Positions 23,780 to 42,894 of a stretch of 51,192 bases of DNA are shown here, piece after piece (within the stretch, counting starts at the first letter, position 1; every line of letters starts with the position of its first letter). The position numbers were made by a program, and so were the translations under genes. The notes under the pieces were generated by a model. The model had not been told where the DNA came from. It was given only the letters and a program-made list of their open reading frames with translations, and ran no database searches. The DNA lies in contig CACHMF010000009.1 in NCBI GenBank assembly GCA_902580855.1, positions 1 through 51,192 on the forward strand, in the 5' to 3' direction. The DNA comes from an uncultured Bacteroidota bacterium (lineage in GTDB: Bacteria > Bacteroidota > Bacteroidia > Flavobacteriales > UBA7312).

Positions 23780-24508
23780 ATGAAAAAAAGCGTATTTATA
23801 CTTATTTACCTTTGCATAAACAGCTTATTTGCACAAAGCAATGATCCGGTCACTATAATTAATCCACATTACAGTTTACAGAAAGCTGCACTAGATATGG
23901 CTGACAACTACGGCATGAGCTCTGGACTAGGTTTAGATTTCATAAAAATCACCAAGAACAACTTTGTTTGGGGAGTGGGAACTCAATTCATTTTTGGAAG
24001 CAACATTAAAGACACCACTCTCTTAGTTCATCTAATGGACAACAGAGGAAATATCTTTGGTGATAATGGGGAAATATCCAGCATTACTCTATTCGAAAGG
24101 GGTTATCATTTTTCGTTTAAAGGCGGTTATTTTTATCCACTTATCGATAATACCAAAGGGCTAATTGCTTTAGGTGGTTTTGGTTTTATGCAGCATAAAA
24201 TCAGAATTCAAGTAGAAACCAATAATGTGCCGAATTTAGAAGATGAATATTTGAAAATGTACGATGGACTCAGCAATGGATTAAGCGCCAGTTTATTTAT
24301 TGGTTGGATGCACATGAGTGACAAAGGTAAAGGACATTTTTATGCAGGATTAGATTTAAATAATGGCTTCACTCAAAACCGCAGAAACTACAACTACAAT
24401 GTTAATGGTCCGATCACGAAACTAAGAAACGATTTACTGATAGGACTCAAGCTAGGATGGGTCATACCAATTAGTAAACGCACTAATCAAGAGTTTTACT
24501 ACAACTAA
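23780..24508 (+). CDS. uncharacterised exported protein, probably outer-membrane beta-barrel
   Basis: 242 residues with a signal peptide (SVFILIYLCINSLFAQ, cleavage near Q19). The mature part has alternating hydrophobic strands ending in aromatic residues and Gly-rich turns (LGLDFIKI, FVWGVGTQFIFGS, YHFSFKGGYFYPL, LIALGGFGFMQHK, LSASLFIGWMHMS, FYAGLDLNNGF, LLIGLKLGWVIPI), the pattern of a small outer-membrane barrel of roughly eight to ten strands. I do not recognise a named family. Its stop overlaps the waaA start by one base, so it may serve LPS or envelope assembly, but this is only context. Confidence 0.75.
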   Translation: MKKSVFILIYLCINSLFAQSNDPVTIINPHYSLQKAALDMADNYGMSSGLGLDFIKITKNNFVWGVGTQFIFGSNIKDTTLLVHLMDNRGNIFGDNGEISSITLFERGYHFSFKGGYFYPLIDNTKGLIALGGFGFMQHKIRIQVETNNVPNLEDEYLKMYDGLSNGLSASLFIGWMHMSDKGKGHFYAGLDLNNGFTQNRRNYNYNVNGPITKLRNDLLIGLKLGWVIPISKRTNQEFYYN

Positions 24509-25659
24509 TGCTTTACACTTTGGGCATATGGATTTACGAGCTTGGTATTCGCTTAGCTAGTTTATGGAACCCCAAAGCTAAAGCTTTTATAAATGGAAGA
24601 AAAGAGAGTTTTAGTAACTTACCAGAAGGAGCTATTTGGATGCACTGCGCCTCTTTAGGTGAGTTTGAGCAAGGCCGCACCTTACTAGAATATATCAAAA
24701 AGGAAAAGCCTGAAGAAAAGATTTTAATCACTTTCTACTCTCCTTCAGGGTATGAAAATGCACAAATAGAAGGAATAGCCGATGCTGTTCGCTACCTTCC
24801 ATTAGATTATCCACTAAGAATAAAAAGATGGGTAACTATCTTACAACCACAATGCTTACTATTGGTGAAAAACGATCTATGGCCCAATCTATTAAAAGCC
24901 ACAAAAGGAGAAAATGTTCCAACTCATATCATTTCAGGGCGATTTTCTCCAAAACAAAAACACTTAAAATGGATGCAACAGCCACTAAAAGGAATCACCC
25001 ATTTTTGGGTGCAAGATGAAACCTCTGCAAAACACATACGATCTTTTGGTATTAAGCAGATAACAGTAGTTGGAGATAGCCGATTTGATAGGGTTTACGC
25101 AAATGTCAAAAATAATAGGGATCTCCCGCTTATCCAAACATTTAAAGGAAAAGAGAAATTGGTAGTTATGGGCAGTACTTGGCCTGTAGACATCTCACTT
25201 TTAGAAGAAAAACCAACTTACAAACTAATTGTAGCACCACACGATTTAAAGTACGTTCCTGATATAAAAAAGCAATTAAAAGGATTGCTTTACAGCCAAG
25301 CAAATGAAGGCAATGTAAGAGATCATCAAGTTCTCATTATAGATAACATTGGGTTGTTGGCAAGCATTTACAAATATGCTGATGTAGCTTATATAGGTGG
25401 TGCTTATGGCAGTGGTTTGCACAATATTTTAGAAGCAGCTGCATATGGCTGTCCTTTACTGTTTGGACCCAAGTATCATAACTTTCCAGAAGCAGCAGAA
25501 CTAATAGGAGTTGGTGGTGCTATAAGCATCAATAATAAAAAAACATTCCAAAAAGCTATTTCCTATTATTTCGACAAAGCTCCAAAAGATGATATTCTAC
25601 AATATTGCGAAAGTAAAAGAGGGGCTAGCGAAAAAATGTGGCAAGGAATATTTAACTAA
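24508..25659 (+). CDS. waaA: 3-deoxy-D-manno-octulosonic acid transferase
   Basis: GT30 enzyme that adds Kdo to lipid A at the inner membrane. 383 residues, a little short of the 410-430 of proteobacterial forms. Visible: an N-terminal hydrophobic anchor (LYTLGIWIYELGIRLASLW), WMHCASLGEFEQG with the catalytic Glu, LITFYSPSGYE, YLPLDYP, NDLWPNLL (replacing ETELWPN), GDSRFDRV, and the GT-B C-terminal motif YIGGAYGSGLHNILEAAAYGCPLLFGP. Coupled to the preceding barrel protein by a one-base overlap. Confidence 0.93.
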   Translation: MLYTLGIWIYELGIRLASLWNPKAKAFINGRKESFSNLPEGAIWMHCASLGEFEQGRTLLEYIKKEKPEEKILITFYSPSGYENAQIEGIADAVRYLPLDYPLRIKRWVTILQPQCLLLVKNDLWPNLLKATKGENVPTHIISGRFSPKQKHLKWMQQPLKGITHFWVQDETSAKHIRSFGIKQITVVGDSRFDRVYANVKNNRDLPLIQTFKGKEKLVVMGSTWPVDISLLEEKPTYKLIVAPHDLKYVPDIKKQLKGLLYSQANEGNVRDHQVLIIDNIGLLASIYKYADVAYIGGAYGSGLHNILEAAAYGCPLLFGPKYHNFPEAAELIGVGGAISINNKKTFQKAISYYFDKAPKDDILQYCESKRGASEKMWQGIFN

Positions 25660-25731
25660 TTCACTTAGCCAATCTTAGATGTTTTTTCATTTTGATGCTC
25701 AAAATTATTGAAGTTTAAAAAATACTATTTC

Positions 25732-25756: not shown

Positions 25757-25799
25757 AAGTCTTTCTTTTTATCTTTATACATAATTATAATCTTGAAAT

Positions 25800-25973
25800 A
25801 TGTTTGGGTTTTTTAAGAAGAAATCAGAGAAGGATAAACTGCTAGAACAGTACAATAAAAAGAAAAAACAAGCCTTTATTTTATCGAAGTCAAATAGAAA
25901 AGAAAGTGATAGGCTTGAAAAAGAAGCTTTTGATATTTTACAAAAAATAGATGCTTTACCACAAAAAGATTAG
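25800..25973 (+). CDS. small Lacal_2735 family-like protein
   Basis: A 57-residue ORF, ATG to TAG, rich in Lys and Glu. It begins MFGFFKKKSEKDKLLEQYNK and continues with a second helix (KSNRKESDRLEKEAFDILQKI). The MFG-(L/F)-FKKK start and the two charged helices match the small Flavobacteriia proteins annotated Lacal_2735 family. It is cytoplasmic with no signal peptide. Function is unknown. It precedes the GIY-YIG gene by 14 bases in the same orientation, so they may share a transcript. Confidence 0.72.
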   Translation: MFGFFKKKSEKDKLLEQYNKKKKQAFILSKSNRKESDRLEKEAFDILQKIDALPQKD

Positions 25974-25987
25974 TTTTTTACATTTTT

Positions 25988-26767
25988 ATGTTTTTAACTT
26001 TTGAAAAAGATGATGTAATAAACAAAAATATTCCACCAGAAATAATCGGTGTTTATTATTTTTTGGATTCATCAGACAATATTTTATACATCGGAAAAAG
26101 TATTGATGTTAAAAAACGTATGTCACAACATCTATACAAGGGAAGAAAACGTTTGTTATCTGCATATTGTAAAATTAGAGTTGTTCCTATGCACTCAGAA
26201 TTAGAGGCATTACTATTTGAATCTCAAGAAGTAAAGAAATATAAGCCAATTTTTAATAGAAAATTAAGGAAATCAAAACAATTAATTTCTTTATACTCAT
26301 GCAAAAATCAAACTAGTTATAGCTATTATTATTTAGGAAGAGATCAACAAAATGATTCTTTGATTGATTTTATGAGTATGAAAGCTGCCAAGTCTTTTTT
26401 GACTAAACTGACGTCTAAATATCAGCTATGCGAAAAAATCAATAAGCTTGACAAATCCTCAAGAATGTGTTTTCAGTATCATTTAAAAAAGTGTAATGGT
26501 GCTTGTATAAAAATAGAAAGCGTGGAAGGTTATAATTCTAGATATGAATCAAGCTATTCTCAAATTTTTAATAATCCAAAAGACTGTTGTTTGACTTTCA
26601 ACATTGAGGGAGTGAAGACATACGTAAATATTGAAAACAACAAGGTAGTTAAGTTTGGAGTAAAAGGTAAAAGCGCTTATTCTATTGATTTTCCATCCAA
26701 TGATGAAATCAGAATTGTTAACATGTATAAAAATAGATTTTCTAAAAATTTTGAAATAGACATTTAA
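25988..26767 (+). CDS. stand-alone GIY-YIG nuclease with UvrC-like cysteine region
   Basis: 259 residues. The GIY-YIG nuclease domain (about 17-95) is complete: GVY (21-23), YIG (34-36), Arg44, metal-binding Glu78 and KPIFN (86-90). After it a region resembling the UvrC/Cho part that follows the nuclease has Cys148, Cys161, Cys169 and Cys173 (CFQYHLKKCNGAC). Their spacing, 13-8-4, is close to the 12-8-4 of the Cys set reported as [4Fe-4S] ligands in E. coli UvrC. The UvrB-binding UVR motif, RNase H-like and HhH domains of UvrC are absent, and no DnaQ exonuclease domain precedes it. It may be a Cho-like backup incision enzyme; the last 60 residues are unassigned. The coding sequence appears more AT-rich than its neighbours. 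Confidence 0.82.
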   Translation: MFLTFEKDDVINKNIPPEIIGVYYFLDSSDNILYIGKSIDVKKRMSQHLYKGRKRLLSAYCKIRVVPMHSELEALLFESQEVKKYKPIFNRKLRKSKQLISLYSCKNQTSYSYYYLGRDQQNDSLIDFMSMKAAKSFLTKLTSKYQLCEKINKLDKSSRMCFQYHLKKCNGACIKIESVEGYNSRYESSYSQIFNNPKDCCLTFNIEGVKTYVNIENNKVVKFGVKGKSAYSIDFPSNDEIRIVNMYKNRFSKNFEIDI

Positions 26768-37329: not shown

Positions 37330-38136
37330 CTACTCTGACTGTGAATAGGAAAAATCTACCATATATCCCTCATGAGCTCGCACATTAAATACTCGCCCAC
37401 TGTCCAATAATAAATATTGTCCTTTTATACCTCTTAACTCCCCTTCTATCACTGGAGATTTGTTAGAAAGCTTTACACTGCTAATTTTTTTCGGATATTC
37501 TAAAACTGGATAGCTGATTTCAGTTACTGTGTTATCATCTAATACATATTGCTTCAACTCATCAGGAACATGAGATGATAACTCATTTTTCATTTGCACC
37601 ATGTCTATGTAATCAGGAATACCTGCTAGCATTTTTCTCCAATTTGTTTTATCAGCCACAAACTGCTTAATTGCTACCTCTATATCTCCTGAAAATCTTC
37701 TATTTGGTACTTTTGCTAAAATAATAGCTTGACTTGCACCTTGATCCATCCAACGAACAACACCCTGAGATTCTCTAGTAATCCCTACCTTTATTCCTGA
37801 TGAATTAGCTAGATATACATAGTGTGATGCTAACTGAAAATTTCTCTCCCATTCTAAATCACGCTCTTCAATATCAAGATGTGCTGTACATAGTTCAGGC
37901 TTGAAAATACTTTGAGAAGCTTGTGGTGCCTCCCAATAACAAGTGTAACAAAAACCTGAACGGTAAAATTTAGTATCACGCCTTCCACACATGCAAAAAA
38001 CTTCCCCATTCCAAGACAATTTAATTTGACTGCCTATTAAATCATTCATTACATACTTTTCACCATTAATTTCCAAGGAATACTTAACAACATCAGCTAA
38101 GCTTGTTTCCATTTTTTTGATTGTGTTCTCACGCAT
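37330..38136 (-). CDS. DUF2797 domain-containing protein
   Basis: 268 residues. Marks of the DUF2797 family: two zinc-type pairs (CMCGRRDTKFYRSGFCYTCYWEAP), ELCTAHLDIEERDLEWERNFQ, HYVYLANSSGIKVGITRESQGVVRWMDQGASQA. The last part has a GIY-YIG-like feel (VYLANSSGIKVGIT), and the family has been linked to that nuclease superfamily, but no catalytic residues can be claimed. Two possible starts, Met1 and Met9 (METSLADV), eight residues apart. Convergent with the YhhQ gene, 14 bases away. Function unknown. Confidence 0.88.
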   Translation of the reverse strand: MRENTIKKMETSLADVVKYSLEINGEKYVMNDLIGSQIKLSWNGEVFCMCGRRDTKFYRSGFCYTCYWEAPQASQSIFKPELCTAHLDIEERDLEWERNFQLASHYVYLANSSGIKVGITRESQGVVRWMDQGASQAIILAKVPNRRFSGDIEVAIKQFVADKTNWRKMLAGIPDYIDMVQMKNELSSHVPDELKQYVLDDNTVTEISYPVLEYPKKISSVKLSNKSPVIEGELRGIKGQYLLLDSGRVFNVRAHEGYMVDFSYSQSE

Positions 38137-38173: not shown

Positions 38174-39697
38174 TTGCTGAATTTAACACTTAAAAGTTCC
38201 GTAATGTCGTGGGTGATGCGTAAGCGCATGCATCAAATTGATTTATTTAGAAAATACCCACACGAAGTACAAGAAGAGTGGCTTCAAAAACTCATTAACA
38301 ACGGAAAGAATACTGATTTCGGTAAACAATATGATTTTGAAAACATTCAAAACTACGAACAGTTTAAAACAAAAACACCTATTAGCACTTACAAAGATTT
38401 AGAAAACTATATTAAAAGTATTCGTCAAGGATTCCAAAATATTTTATGGCCTAGCGAAACTAAGTGGTTTGCAAAATCTTCCGGAACAAGCGGGAGCAAA
38501 AGCAAATTTATCCCAGTAACAGAAGAATCACTCATTGATTGTCACTTCAAAGGAGGGAAAGACATGCTTTCTATTTACTGTGACAATTATCCTGAAACTA
38601 CCATCTTTAATGGAAAGAGTTTAATATTAGGTGGTAGTCATGAAGCATCTTTAAACGAGAATGGAAAAGAAGGCGATTTATCTGCCATTATTATGGACAA
38701 TCTTCCGTTTTGGGTTAACATACACAGAACACCTAGTAAGGATATTGCTTTAATGAATGATTTTGAAGCAAAAATTGAGAAGATAGCTAATATTAGCTCG
38801 AAAGAAAATGTTACCAATATAGCAGGGGTTCCTTCTTGGATGCTTGTTTTATTTAAACGAATTTTAGAAGAAACGGGCGCCAAACACATACACGAAGTAT
38901 GGCCTAATTTAGAACTTTACATGCATGGAGGTGTAAGCTTCAGCCCTTATCGAAAACAATTTAAAGAGCTACTTCCAAATGGTGTTAACTTTCTAGAAAC
39001 ATATAATGCTTCAGAAGGTTTTTTTGGCATTCAAGACAAACGTAACAATGAAGAAATGCTTTTAATGTTAGATTATGGAATCTTCTATGAATTTATACCA
39101 ATGGATGATTATGATCTAAAAAAAACTGTCCCAATTTGGGGAGTGGAACAAGACAAAAACTATGCCTTAGTCATAACCACAAACGCGGGTCTTTGGAGAT
39201 ACCTAATTGGAGATACCATAACTTTTACAAACACTCAACCTTATAGATTTAAAATTACAGGAAGAATCAGTCAGTTCATAAATACTTTTGGGGAAGAATT
39301 AATGATTGAAAATACAGATAAAGCTCTTTCTATTGCTTGTCAAAAAACTAACTCTAATATATTAGAATACACTGTAGCTCCAATATACATGCAATCGCAG
39401 AACAAGGGTGGACATGAATGGATTATAGAATTTGAAAGCACACCTAAAGATTTAGATTTTTTCACACACGCCTTAGATGATGCTTTAAAATCTGTCAACT
39501 CTGACTATGAAGCCAAACGATTTAAAGACATGGCGCTAAAAGAACCAAAAATACATATTGCCAAAAAGAACTTATTTTACCAGTGGATGAAAAAACAAGG
39601 AAAGCTTGGGAGACAATTTAAAGTTCCAAGACTTAGTAATGAACGCACACATTTAGAAAGCTTGTTAAATTTAAATAATGAACCTTTGAATTGCTAG
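38174..39697 (+). CDS. GH3-family acyl-adenylate-forming enzyme
   Basis: 507 residues of the GH3 (auxin-responsive promoter) fold, an ANL-superfamily member that joins amino acids to carboxylates in plants. Visible: IHQ-type beginning KRMHQIDLFRKYPHEVQEEW, the ATP motif WFAKSSGTSGSKSKFIPVT (about 98-116), LETYNASEGFFGIQ (motif 2), GLWRYLIGDTITF (motif 3) and FKITGRISQFINTFGEEL. Common in Bacteroidota, with no known bacterial substrate. The TTG start at 38174 adds 10 residues that match the short hydrophobic leader of relatives; the ATG at 38204 is the alternative. Confidence 0.87.
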   Translation: MLNLTLKSSVMSWVMRKRMHQIDLFRKYPHEVQEEWLQKLINNGKNTDFGKQYDFENIQNYEQFKTKTPISTYKDLENYIKSIRQGFQNILWPSETKWFAKSSGTSGSKSKFIPVTEESLIDCHFKGGKDMLSIYCDNYPETTIFNGKSLILGGSHEASLNENGKEGDLSAIIMDNLPFWVNIHRTPSKDIALMNDFEAKIEKIANISSKENVTNIAGVPSWMLVLFKRILEETGAKHIHEVWPNLELYMHGGVSFSPYRKQFKELLPNGVNFLETYNASEGFFGIQDKRNNEEMLLMLDYGIFYEFIPMDDYDLKKTVPIWGVEQDKNYALVITTNAGLWRYLIGDTITFTNTQPYRFKITGRISQFINTFGEELMIENTDKALSIACQKTNSNILEYTVAPIYMQSQNKGGHEWIIEFESTPKDLDFFTHALDDALKSVNSDYEAKRFKDMALKEPKIHIAKKNLFYQWMKKQGKLGRQFKVPRLSNERTHLESLLNLNNEPLNC

Positions 39698-40413: not shown

Positions 40414-42894
40414 TTACTTATCCAGTATTTTTTGAGGCTCTCTCAACTGCATTTTTCCTTCAATTGAACCTTCGTTAATCTTAAAAGTAAATAATGCGTT
40501 TAATGGAATTTCGTTTACCATTAATTGACCTTTCGTTTTATAAGTTCCATCAAGATTTGGGATTTTACTTGATGAAAAATAAACACTTGAATTATTAAAT
40601 TTATTAACACCTTTTCCTTCTTTGACTTCACCTAAAAAGAAACTTACATTGGCGAACTCGTCATTATATTCTAACTGTGGCTTTTCAAGGGAATAAACAC
40701 CAGATTCATCCCCCATCGAAACTTCAACAAATGATGCTTCCTCAGTAGTTGTAGTACCATTCATAGCGATGGAAGGAGCAATAACCAATGCTACAACTGA
40801 CATTAATTTCAATAAGATATTTAATGATGGTCCTGAAGTATCCTTAAATGGATCTCCTACAGTATCACCAACAACAGCGGCTTTGTGTGCTTCTGTTCCT
40901 TTCTTTCCTTGTTCTTCAATCATCTTTTTAGCGTTATCCCAAGCACCGCCTGCATTTGATTGGAAGATTGCCATCAAAACACCACAAGTAGTTACACCTG
41001 CCAATAATCCACCTAGCATTTCAGCACCACCAATAAAACCAATCAATACTGGAACAATTATTGCCAATAAACCCGGTGCAACCATTTCACGTATTGATGC
41101 CTGTGTAGAAATCTCCACACATTTATCGTATTCTGCCACACCATTAGCTGCATCAAAGATTTTTCTATCTTCAGCAGAAGCTTTAGACATATCAGAGTTA
41201 TTCTTACGCATTACTTCTAATGCTGCTTTTAATGCTGGTATATCTTTGAATTGGCGTCTAACCTCTTCAATCATAGCCATAGCTGCTCGACCTACTGCAT
41301 TCATAGACATCGCAGAGAAAACGAATGGCAACATACCACCAATTAATAATCCAGCCATGATATCAGGACGAGAAACATCGATAGAAGTAATACCTGCAGT
41401 CTTCATATATGCTGCGAATAATGCTAAGGCTGTAAGTGCTGCAGAAGCAATTGCAAAACCTTTACCGATAGCTGCTGTAGTATTACCTACTGCATCTAAT
41501 TTATCTGTACGTTCTCGAACTTCTGAAGGCAATTCAGCCATCTCAGCAATACCACCAGCGTTATCAGAAATTGGACCGTAAGCATCAACTGCTAGCTGTA
41601 TACCTGTGTTTGCTAACATACCTACTGCAGCGATAGCAATACCATACAATCCAGCAAATTTATGAGAGACTAGGATTGCTGCTGCAATTAAAATGATTGG
41701 AATAGCAGTAGACATCATACCTACACCTAAGCCAGCAATTATGTTCGTTGCTGATCCTGTTTCAGACTGCTCAACAATACCTGTAACTGGCTTTGTACCT
41801 GTTCCTGTATAATACTCTGTTACTTTACCAACAGCAAGACCTGCTACCAAACCTGCAATTGTTGCCCAGAAAACACCCATTGCTGTGTATTGTGTTCCTG
41901 ATTCAACCCAAGTTTCTGGGAGCATCGTATTAATAATAAAATAAGAAGCAACCAACATTAAACCTGCTGAACCGAACTCACCAATATTTAATGCGGAATG
42001 TGGAGAACCACCTTCTTTAACTTTTACAAAGAACGTTCCGATGATGGACATTATGATACCTACAGCAGCTAAAGCCATTGGTAGGTAGACAGCTCCCAAA
42101 CCATCAAAAGCATCTTCGAACTCTGGTAATGTTGCATAAGTAGCACCTAATACCATTGTACCAATAATAGAACCAACATAAGATTCAAACAAGTCTGCAC
42201 CCATTCCGGCTACATCACCTACATTATCACCTACGTTATCTGCAATTGTTGCAGGGTTCAATGGGTGATCTTCAGGAATACCTGCTTCAACCTTACCTAC
42301 TAGGTCAGCGCCTACATCAGCAGCTTTAGTATAAATACCACCACCCACACGAGCAAATAATGCAATAGAAGAAGCACCTAAAGAGAACCCTGAAAGTACA
42401 TTAAGTACTTCTGCTAACTCCCATCCTTGACCACTGTATATCACAAATAATGTTGATAGTCCTAATACCCCAAGACCAACAACACCTAATCCCATAACCG
42501 CACCACCAGCAAATGCAACTTCTAATGCTTGACCTAATGAAGTCCTAGCTGCGTTAGTTGTTCTTACATTTGCTTTAGTAGCTACTTTCATTCCGATGAA
42601 ACCTGCTAAAGCAGAACAGATAGCACCAACAATAAAAGATACAGAAACCATTCCGTTAGATCCCTCTTCAGAGTTGCCTTTGAAGAATAATAAAATAGCT
42701 ACCGCTACTACGAATACTGATAAAATTTTGTATTCCGCTTTTAAGAAAGACATTGCACCGTCTGCAATATTTTTTGCGATTTTCGACATTTTCTCATCAC
42801 CCTCTTCTTGTTTAGAAACCCAAGCATTCTTCCAGAATACAAATGCTAGAGCCAAGACTCCGAAAAGGGGTAAATATTTTACAATCATTTCCAT
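40414..42894 (-). CDS. hppA: membrane-bound K+-dependent pyrophosphatase with C-terminal extension
   Basis: A polytopic inner-membrane pump (about 16 helices) that uses pyrophosphate to export H+ and/or Na+. 826 residues. Catalytic motifs are intact: [20 protein letters not shown] and [27 protein letters not shown] with Ala in the position that is Lys in K+-independent types marks a K+-dependent enzyme. The normal end ([13 protein letters not shown]) is followed by about 115 extra residues with no membrane helix, beta-rich, including [20 protein letters not shown] and [15 protein letters not shown], which recalls a YceI-type half domain. The extension follows a helix and is probably on the periplasmic side. 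Downstream of pdhB by 25 bases; probably one operon. Confidence 0.93.

Follow-up and report, generated by a model that had tools for sequence, protein, structure and literature searches.

The locus raises the question of what a short gene encoding a GIY-YIG nuclease domain and a set of four cysteines represents: a new kind of incision enzyme, the remnant of a larger one, or a variant of one already known. The stretch analysed (the window, 51,192 bases) belongs to contig C9 of a 1.34-Mb assembly judged to be 75% complete. The product, a protein of 259 aa, is most likely a new branch within a known kind of enzyme, a UvrC relative similar to E. coli Cho. Its architecture is ordinary. What is new is the lineage, a patchily distributed clade in small-genome Flavobacteriales that is distinct from both DnaQ fusions and Cho of the E. 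coli type, and the nuclease is of modest interest on account of its C-terminal domain and of the genes that surround it in relatives. The features concerned are the following.

25656..25668, plus strand: exact CTAA-N5-TTAG, core of the Bacteroidetes SOS (non-canonical LexA) motif, overlapping the kdtA stop
25760..26758, plus strand: DNA homology with the congener's block of Lacal_2735 and Cho-like genes (blastn, 88% over 1002 columns; flanks unrelated)
25770..25777, plus strand: candidate Bacteroidota -7 promoter element TATCTTTA, at -30 from the Lacal_2735 start; TATCTTTG in the congener
25800..25973, plus strand: small protein of the Lacal_2735/DUF6435 family, 57 aa (NF033487, 66.7 bits)
25988..26767, plus strand: stand-alone Cho-like (UvrC N-terminal type) GIY-YIG nuclease, 259 aa (NCBIfam, Pfam, tree)
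26003..26272, plus strand: GIY-YIG catalytic domain, approximately residues 6-95 (phmmer; VIA-align Z 9.9 to 1ycz)
26429..26506, plus strand: four-cysteine (C4) region, residues 148-173 (Cys148, 161, 169, 173), candidate [4Fe-4S] or structural metal site (cysteine positions, profile matches)
26555..26764, plus strand: C-terminal domain, residues 190-259, predicted by AlphaFold2 as strands, then a helix, then a strand

Locus and domain make-up

The two ORFs of the pair are co-oriented and 14 bases apart. An earlier note on this DNA had given the same spacing and likened the smaller ORF to Lacal_2735, which its score against the family model (cut-off 32 bits) bears out. Upstream of the pair is a kdtA-like gene (24508-25659), so named from its best NCBIfam match, which is below the cut-off of that model; the 140 bases between it and the Lacal_2735 ORF contain no listed ORF of at least 50 aa. 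Downstream are tRNA-Leu and tRNA-Gly genes, then mutS on the opposite strand. With G+C contents of 0.271 and 0.276, the pair comprises the two lowest-GC ORFs of the 41 examined, and the AT-richness relative to its surroundings that had been noted is thus real. A foreign origin on the ground of low GC was considered and rejected: the GC3 of 0.223 is within the range of the window, and 9 of 9 orthologs are also GC-poorer than their flanks.

The claim of a stand-alone and complete UvrC-type GIY-YIG domain is well founded. The Pfam GIY-YIG family scores 29.5 bits (cut-off 22.6), and despite the fact that this model is matched only in part, the domain is complete, because it is spanned both by a phmmer alignment of residues 15-95 with Thermotoga maritima UvrC and by the match of the predicted fold to 1ycz (VIA-align, residues 6-91, rmsd 1.5, 83 aligned). 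The AlphaFold2 model has a mean pLDDT of 90.1 and a pTM of 0.72. In the phmmer alignment Y23, Y34, K37, R44, E78 and N90 fall on Y19, Y29, K32, R39, E76 and N88 of T. maritima UvrC, which we take to be catalytic residues; the mutants Y19F, Y29F and N88A of that protein are named in structure titles. All ten orthologs keep these six residues unchanged.

Other parts of UvrC were not detected. In line with the earlier note, no UvrB-binding, RNase H-like, HhH or DnaQ part was detected in the protein: UVR, UvrC_RNaseH, HhH and exonuclease families give no Pfam match at E<=1. The full-length UvrC of the same genome, the only further match to the 259-aa protein there (E<=1), gives Pfam matches for its GIY-YIG, UVR, RNase H-like and HhH domains, and the RNase_T domain of a control fusion (L079) is detected as well. 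On the small domains the silence of Pfam is weak evidence, because E. coli Cho, also run as a control, gives no Pfam family whatever at E<=0.01. In the profile search against the UvrC and Cho families that the earlier note had proposed, Cho (NF007833) is the best NCBIfam match (104.3 bits, 6.6e-30), but it is below the equivalog cut-off of 367, as UvrC is below its own (74.4 bits; cut-off 285.45). The description of the protein as a Cho-like variant stands as far as a stand-alone GIY-YIG domain with C4 is concerned; the tree places it outside the E. coli-type Cho clade.

Four cysteines and the C-terminal domain

Cysteines occupy residues 61, 105, 148, 161, 169, 173, 200 and 201, and the set Cys148/161/169/173 with its 13-8-4 spacing had been described correctly, being exact by residue count. 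Its likeness to the 12-8-4 spacing of E. coli UvrC (cysteines 154/166/174/178) is incidental, given that every UvrC-length homolog but E. coli's (18 of 19) has 17-8-4. All 9 readable orthologs and all 8 other stand-alone proteins have the 13-8-4 spacing, as do 96 of the 97 fusion-length frames that have a C4 region. The lack of conservation that the earlier note had contemplated was not seen: all ten orthologs have three of the C4 cysteines, and the nine that can be read at the position of the fourth, Cys169, have that one too (G125 has an N). The C4 set does not distinguish the protein, though, as had been supposed, but is general in the UvrC/Cho group, E. coli Cho included. Besides the 97 of 100 fusion-length frames, it is present in 13 of 13 Cho-like proteins, 19 of 19 UvrC-length homologs and 8 of 8 other stand-alones, and in 0 of 2 other GIY-YIG proteins. 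To keep it is thus the rule, and excerpts of a 2006 classification already list it for Cho (PMC1564403).

Profile comparison of the C4 region gives 98.0% with E. coli-type Cho and 99.8% with the DnaQ fusions. A JACS study of 2020 on the UvrC cluster is said to have identified the E. coli UvrC cysteines as ligands of a [4Fe-4S] cluster. UvrC binds a [4Fe-4S] cofactor according to excerpts of a paper citing that work (PMC9426483). Residues 141-180 are modelled confidently (block means 94-97) with little regular secondary structure after residue 144, and this low-structure stretch around the cysteines, as predicted, fits a metal-bound loop. Two fusions (L011 and L012, family f14) lack the fourth cysteine and another (L014, family f2) lacks most of C4; they provide a natural contrast for what these cysteines do.

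The C-terminal domain is less readily placed. Profile matches of residues 190-259 are 0.4% to the corresponding domain of E. coli-type Cho and 4.7% to that of the fusions, a test that may lack power because the fusion domain too goes unmatched. Full-length profile comparison with the fusions extends to about residue 227, and the models of the two share a similar order of strands, helix and strand; on these grounds a distant kinship of the C-terminal part with the fusion domain is likely. No match to a solved structure stood out for this domain when its fold was searched within the whole model, and this does not imply a new fold, because the domain was predicted only within the whole protein.

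Orthologs, phylogeny and genomic setting

Relatives were sought among the best 80 matches of a genome scan, in 395 genomes drawn from the order, which comprises more than these, and in a draw of 395 from across the phylum. At the top of the order-wide list are ten orthologs, the query and nine proteins of 41-82% identity, in frames of 261-281 aa. They come from G000 (the genome of the window) and its congener G001 in family f1, from G064, G116, G125, G160, G178 and G288 in f11, and from G072 and G092 in f15. The spread is patchy: 2 of the 10 genomes of the own family (own included), 6 of 52 in f11 and 2 of 12 in f15; in a set of 60 genomes that includes the own, only G001 besides it has an ortholog. 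The order-wide list continues with mostly fusion-length frames, the best at 37-41% identity, and two short frames (G334, G265), and the phylum-wide search added only fusion-length frames at E<=1e-40. Fusion-length here means 381-560 aa; proteins were assigned to groups from locus lists and frame length, and some starts were placed inside the exonuclease part. Pfam verified the exonuclease in one fusion (L079), and a short motif did so in many. Within the ten ortholog genomes, several of them incomplete, no second match reached E<=1e-18, the level at which the fusions score. Judging from rhodopsin genes and from record names, the clade is probably marine.

A maximum-likelihood tree was built from 76 of 152 distinct homologs, comprising after filters the 10 orthologs, 35 of 38 chosen fusions, 13 of 19 UvrCs, 11 of 13 Cho-like proteins and 7 of 8 other stand-alones; a truncated protein (L100) and two unrelated GIY-YIG proteins were left out. 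With the 13 UvrCs as outgroup, the ten orthologs form one clade (100/99), the 35 DnaQ fusions a separate one (98/98), and the 11 Cho proteins, ten of them taken from viral-contig records and the other from E. coli, a third (100/95). The seven other Bacteroidota stand-alones branch from an unresolved fork that also gives rise to the ten orthologs and the fusions. The 259-aa gene is under purifying selection: compared with that of G001 (88% amino-acid identity over 239 readable codons), dN is 0.057 and dS 0.396, a dN/dS of about 0.14. For the Lacal_2735 ORF dN is 0.029 and dS 0.280.

In several relatives, the gene adjoins genes that point to DNA damage. A photolyase-type gene is directly downstream in G072 (genus g37), G160 (g21) and four genomes of g36, that is, in 3 of 6 genera, for which the chance probability is 7e-7 by a crude estimate that ignores shared descent of gene order. 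In G160 a DPRP gene comes after the photolyase-type gene. In L063, a g36 locus, the nuclease comes after a rhodopsin gene and blh, and a DPRP gene is about 2.6 kb further on; neighbouring proteins were scanned in this locus only, and L064-L066 have a similar ORF order. All told, positions 5927-12664 of L063 hold rhodopsin, blh, the Cho-like nuclease, a photolyase-type FAD protein, a flavin reductase and DPRP within about 7 kb. In the congener G001 (g1) the order is Lacal_2735, nuclease, umuD, umuC, an HhH-GPD glycosylase gene flanks the block at its other end, and blh and rhodopsin genes start about 2.5 kb from the block, so that umuC, umuD, the nuclease, Lacal_2735, the glycosylase, blh and rhodopsin share 7 kb (L058, 6063-13037). 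Neither photolyase nor umuDC adjoins the nuclease in g56 and g31 (G178, G092). Excerpts of two papers describe photolyase clusters in proteorhodopsin-bearing marine Flavobacteriia (PMC5932025, PMC2668756), and these excerpts contain no mention of this nuclease.

Within the window, photolyase, rhodopsin and umuDC neighbours are absent beside the gene; the umuDC of the same genome is on contig C8, away from the pair, and no photolyase FAD domain was found in the 75%-complete assembly. Among stand-alones outside the clade, the Empedobacter relative adjoins umuDC. The one in G265 (L068, 7561-13374) adjoins an HTH regulator (S24 match below cut-off) and polymerases of the Y-family and DnaE types, an arrangement that looks SOS-mutagenesis-like. 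The neighbours of the Echinicola, Weeksella, Flavobacterium and Galbibacter stand-alones, inspected by eye, are not suggestive of DNA repair. No ordinary start codon precedes the GIY-YIG motif in the Galbibacter frame (L100).

E. coli Cho is under SOS control. The copy of CTAA-N5-TTAG at the kdtA stop is 131 bases before the Lacal_2735 start; the whole window has 3 copies against 1.5 expected. It is the only copy in the upstream regions of 17 stand-alones (0.16 expected; not in the other 16), and the upstream regions of 98 fusions show no clear excess, with 2 copies against 1.1 expected, and 3 against 2.05 for the other motif. Excerpts of PMC8565304 give CTAA-N5-TTAG and GGA-N5-TCC as SOS motifs of Bacteroidetes and include a GIY-YIG-bearing exonuclease of this group among predicted SOS targets. 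The upstream motif may be taken as a lead for SOS control, on weak evidence only. The consensus of the Bacteroidota -7 element is TAnnTTTG, and TATCTTTA, TATCTTTG in the congener, is possibly such an element.

Probable function and competing explanations

We put at about 0.65 the probability that the protein is an accessory, UvrAB-dependent nuclease of the Cho type that makes 3' incisions at UV or bulky damage, and infer for it a dependence on UvrB, a cut on the 3' side, a bound metal and a docking role. UvrA and UvrB would locate and verify the lesion, the GIY-YIG site of the 259-aa protein would nick the damaged strand on its 3' side, and the full-length UvrC of the same genome would cut 5' with its RNase H domain. 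The C4 region may bind a [4Fe-4S] cluster or another metal and so aid DNA binding, and the C-terminal domain would be the docking part in place of the missing UVR motif. The profile match to E. coli-type Cho is 99.2% over the GIY-YIG domain, in addition to that over C4, and Cho makes only 3' incisions, in nucleotide excision repair, according to excerpts of PMC1564403. A role in DNA damage is indicated by the photolyase-type, umuDC and polymerase genes that adjoin the nuclease in relatives. UvrB scores over its cut-off in 9 of the 10 ortholog genomes, the own included. Against this reading are the Cho score (104.3 versus 367), the position outside the E. coli-type Cho clade, and the fact that the gene in the window adjoins kdtA-like, tRNA and mutS genes in an arrangement common to relatives without the pair. 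Also counting against it are G160 with no UvrB over the cut-off, G178 and G092 with neither photolyase nor umuDC as neighbour, this genome with no photolyase FAD domain found, and an SOS-type motif that recurs upstream of none of the other 16 stand-alones.

It is unlikely, on present evidence, that the protein instead nicks damaged or otherwise specific DNA structures independently of UvrB, together with photolyase-family or translesion proteins. The undetected UVR motif, a C-terminal domain without a demonstrated match to that of Cho, and the photolyase-type neighbours in 3 of 6 genera would be in keeping with such an activity, as would G160 (f11), where no UvrB exceeds the cut-off though nuclease and photolyase genes are present. 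However, that assembly is fragmented and 93% complete, so the missing UvrB may be an assembly gap; UvrB is found in the other nine genomes, and E. coli Cho is likewise without a UVR match, yet is reported in nucleotide excision repair (PMC1564403, excerpts). A more elaborate proposal, improbable in our estimation, is that of a separate branch of excision repair in sunlit-water Flavobacteriales, in which a mini-Cho with its own C-terminal domain would act with photolyase-family flavoproteins in a rhodopsin/UV cluster. It would cut at lesions to which photolyases bind without being able to reverse them, and might do so without UvrB.

Very unlikely, too, is a GIY-YIG nuclease gene of mobile or homing type that has inserted beside tRNA-Leu. 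The patchy presence of the gene would suit it, as would the surroundings, which differ between the two congeners. Against the 13-kb locus of G001, positions 25760-26758 are the sole blastn match of the 51-kb window at E<=1e-5. Either the pair moves as a unit of 1 kb or the genes around it have been rearranged. In G008 and G007, of the same family and with both flanks visible, the kdtA-like gene leads to tRNA-Leu over 174 and 368 bases without the pair; in G009, of the same family, another gene is between the same flanks, likewise without it. The domain order is nevertheless of the UvrC/Cho type, with C4, and the neighbours in relatives are DNA-repair genes. Integration at tRNA-Leu with a duplicated end was rejected, no second copy of the tRNA end being found with up to 3 mismatches allowed, and no notable terminal repeats were found around the pair. 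A phage origin was also considered. Of 16 matches in a search of viral contigs, 12 are Cho-like proteins (L151-L162, 274-314 aa); since 10 of these 12 match within 3,000 bases of a contig end, the genes are likely host DNA beside prophages, and this origin was rejected.

A dedicated two-component system of the Lacal_2735 protein and the nuclease is more doubtful still. The 14-base spacing, a block conserved as a whole between G000 and G001, and the purifying selection on both genes speak for it, but the co-occurrence that the earlier note had wished to see checked did not reveal a conserved unit: of the ten ortholog genomes only two, from a single genus, have the genes side by side; seven carry the Lacal_2735 gene at another place, and in one it was not found, so that a conserved partnership is rejected outside the genus. 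A search on Lacal_2735 and DUF6435 found no paper in the collection covered. Least credible is a DnaQ-UvrC fusion that has lost its exonuclease half and is drifting, since, for all that the nearest relatives outside the clade are mostly of fusion length and have a similar C-terminal order of secondary structure, the separate clades show that it did not arise by recent truncation of a fusion among those sampled, the dN/dS is low, all ten orthologs are short frames, and the locus has no decayed exonuclease domain beside the gene of the sort the earlier note had considered, with no ORF of at least 50 aa listed in the 140 bases after kdtA.

The accessory Cho-type nuclease that we favour compares with known systems as follows. 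Like E. coli Cho (YdjQ; 295 aa versus 259), it combines GIY-YIG with C4, and UvrB-binding, RNase H and HhH parts went undetected; unlike it, it has a 13-8-4 rather than a 15-8-4 cysteine spacing, belongs to a separate clade (27% identity over the aligned part), and has a C-terminal domain that is not recognisably homologous, as far as a test of possibly low power can tell. The DnaQ(RNase_T)-GIY-YIG fusions of Bacteroidota (COG0847 type) have the closest GIY-YIG and C4 regions and the same 13-8-4 spacing, whereas the 259-aa protein has no exonuclease domain and a clade of its own; excerpts of the 2006 classification include Cho+Exo and Cho-like+Exo classes comparable to these fusions (PMC1564403). 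Other Bacteroidota stand-alones (Echinicola, Weeksella, Empedobacter, Galbibacter, a Flavobacterium MAG, G334 and G265) share the short frame and the 13-8-4 spacing, but the seven in the tree fall outside the ten-member clade. With UvrC the protein shares the GIY-YIG fold, the catalytic residues and the C4 region, but shows no detectable UVR, RNase H-like or HhH part, all of which are matched in the UvrC of its own genome.

The ten orthologs, of about 260 aa, offer a compact natural set for the role of C4 and the need for a [4Fe-4S] cluster, free of the rest of UvrC. The links to photolyase, rhodopsin and umuDC suggest a second incision nuclease among the sunlight-repair genes of some small-genome bacteria, which would extend the photolyase clusters reported for proteorhodopsin-bearing Flavobacteriia (PMC5932025, PMC2668756, excerpts). 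Elsewhere in the window, a DUF2797 protein (37330-38136) has a strong Pfam match, and a GH3-family protein (38174-39697) is encoded near a membrane H+-pyrophosphatase (40414-42894).
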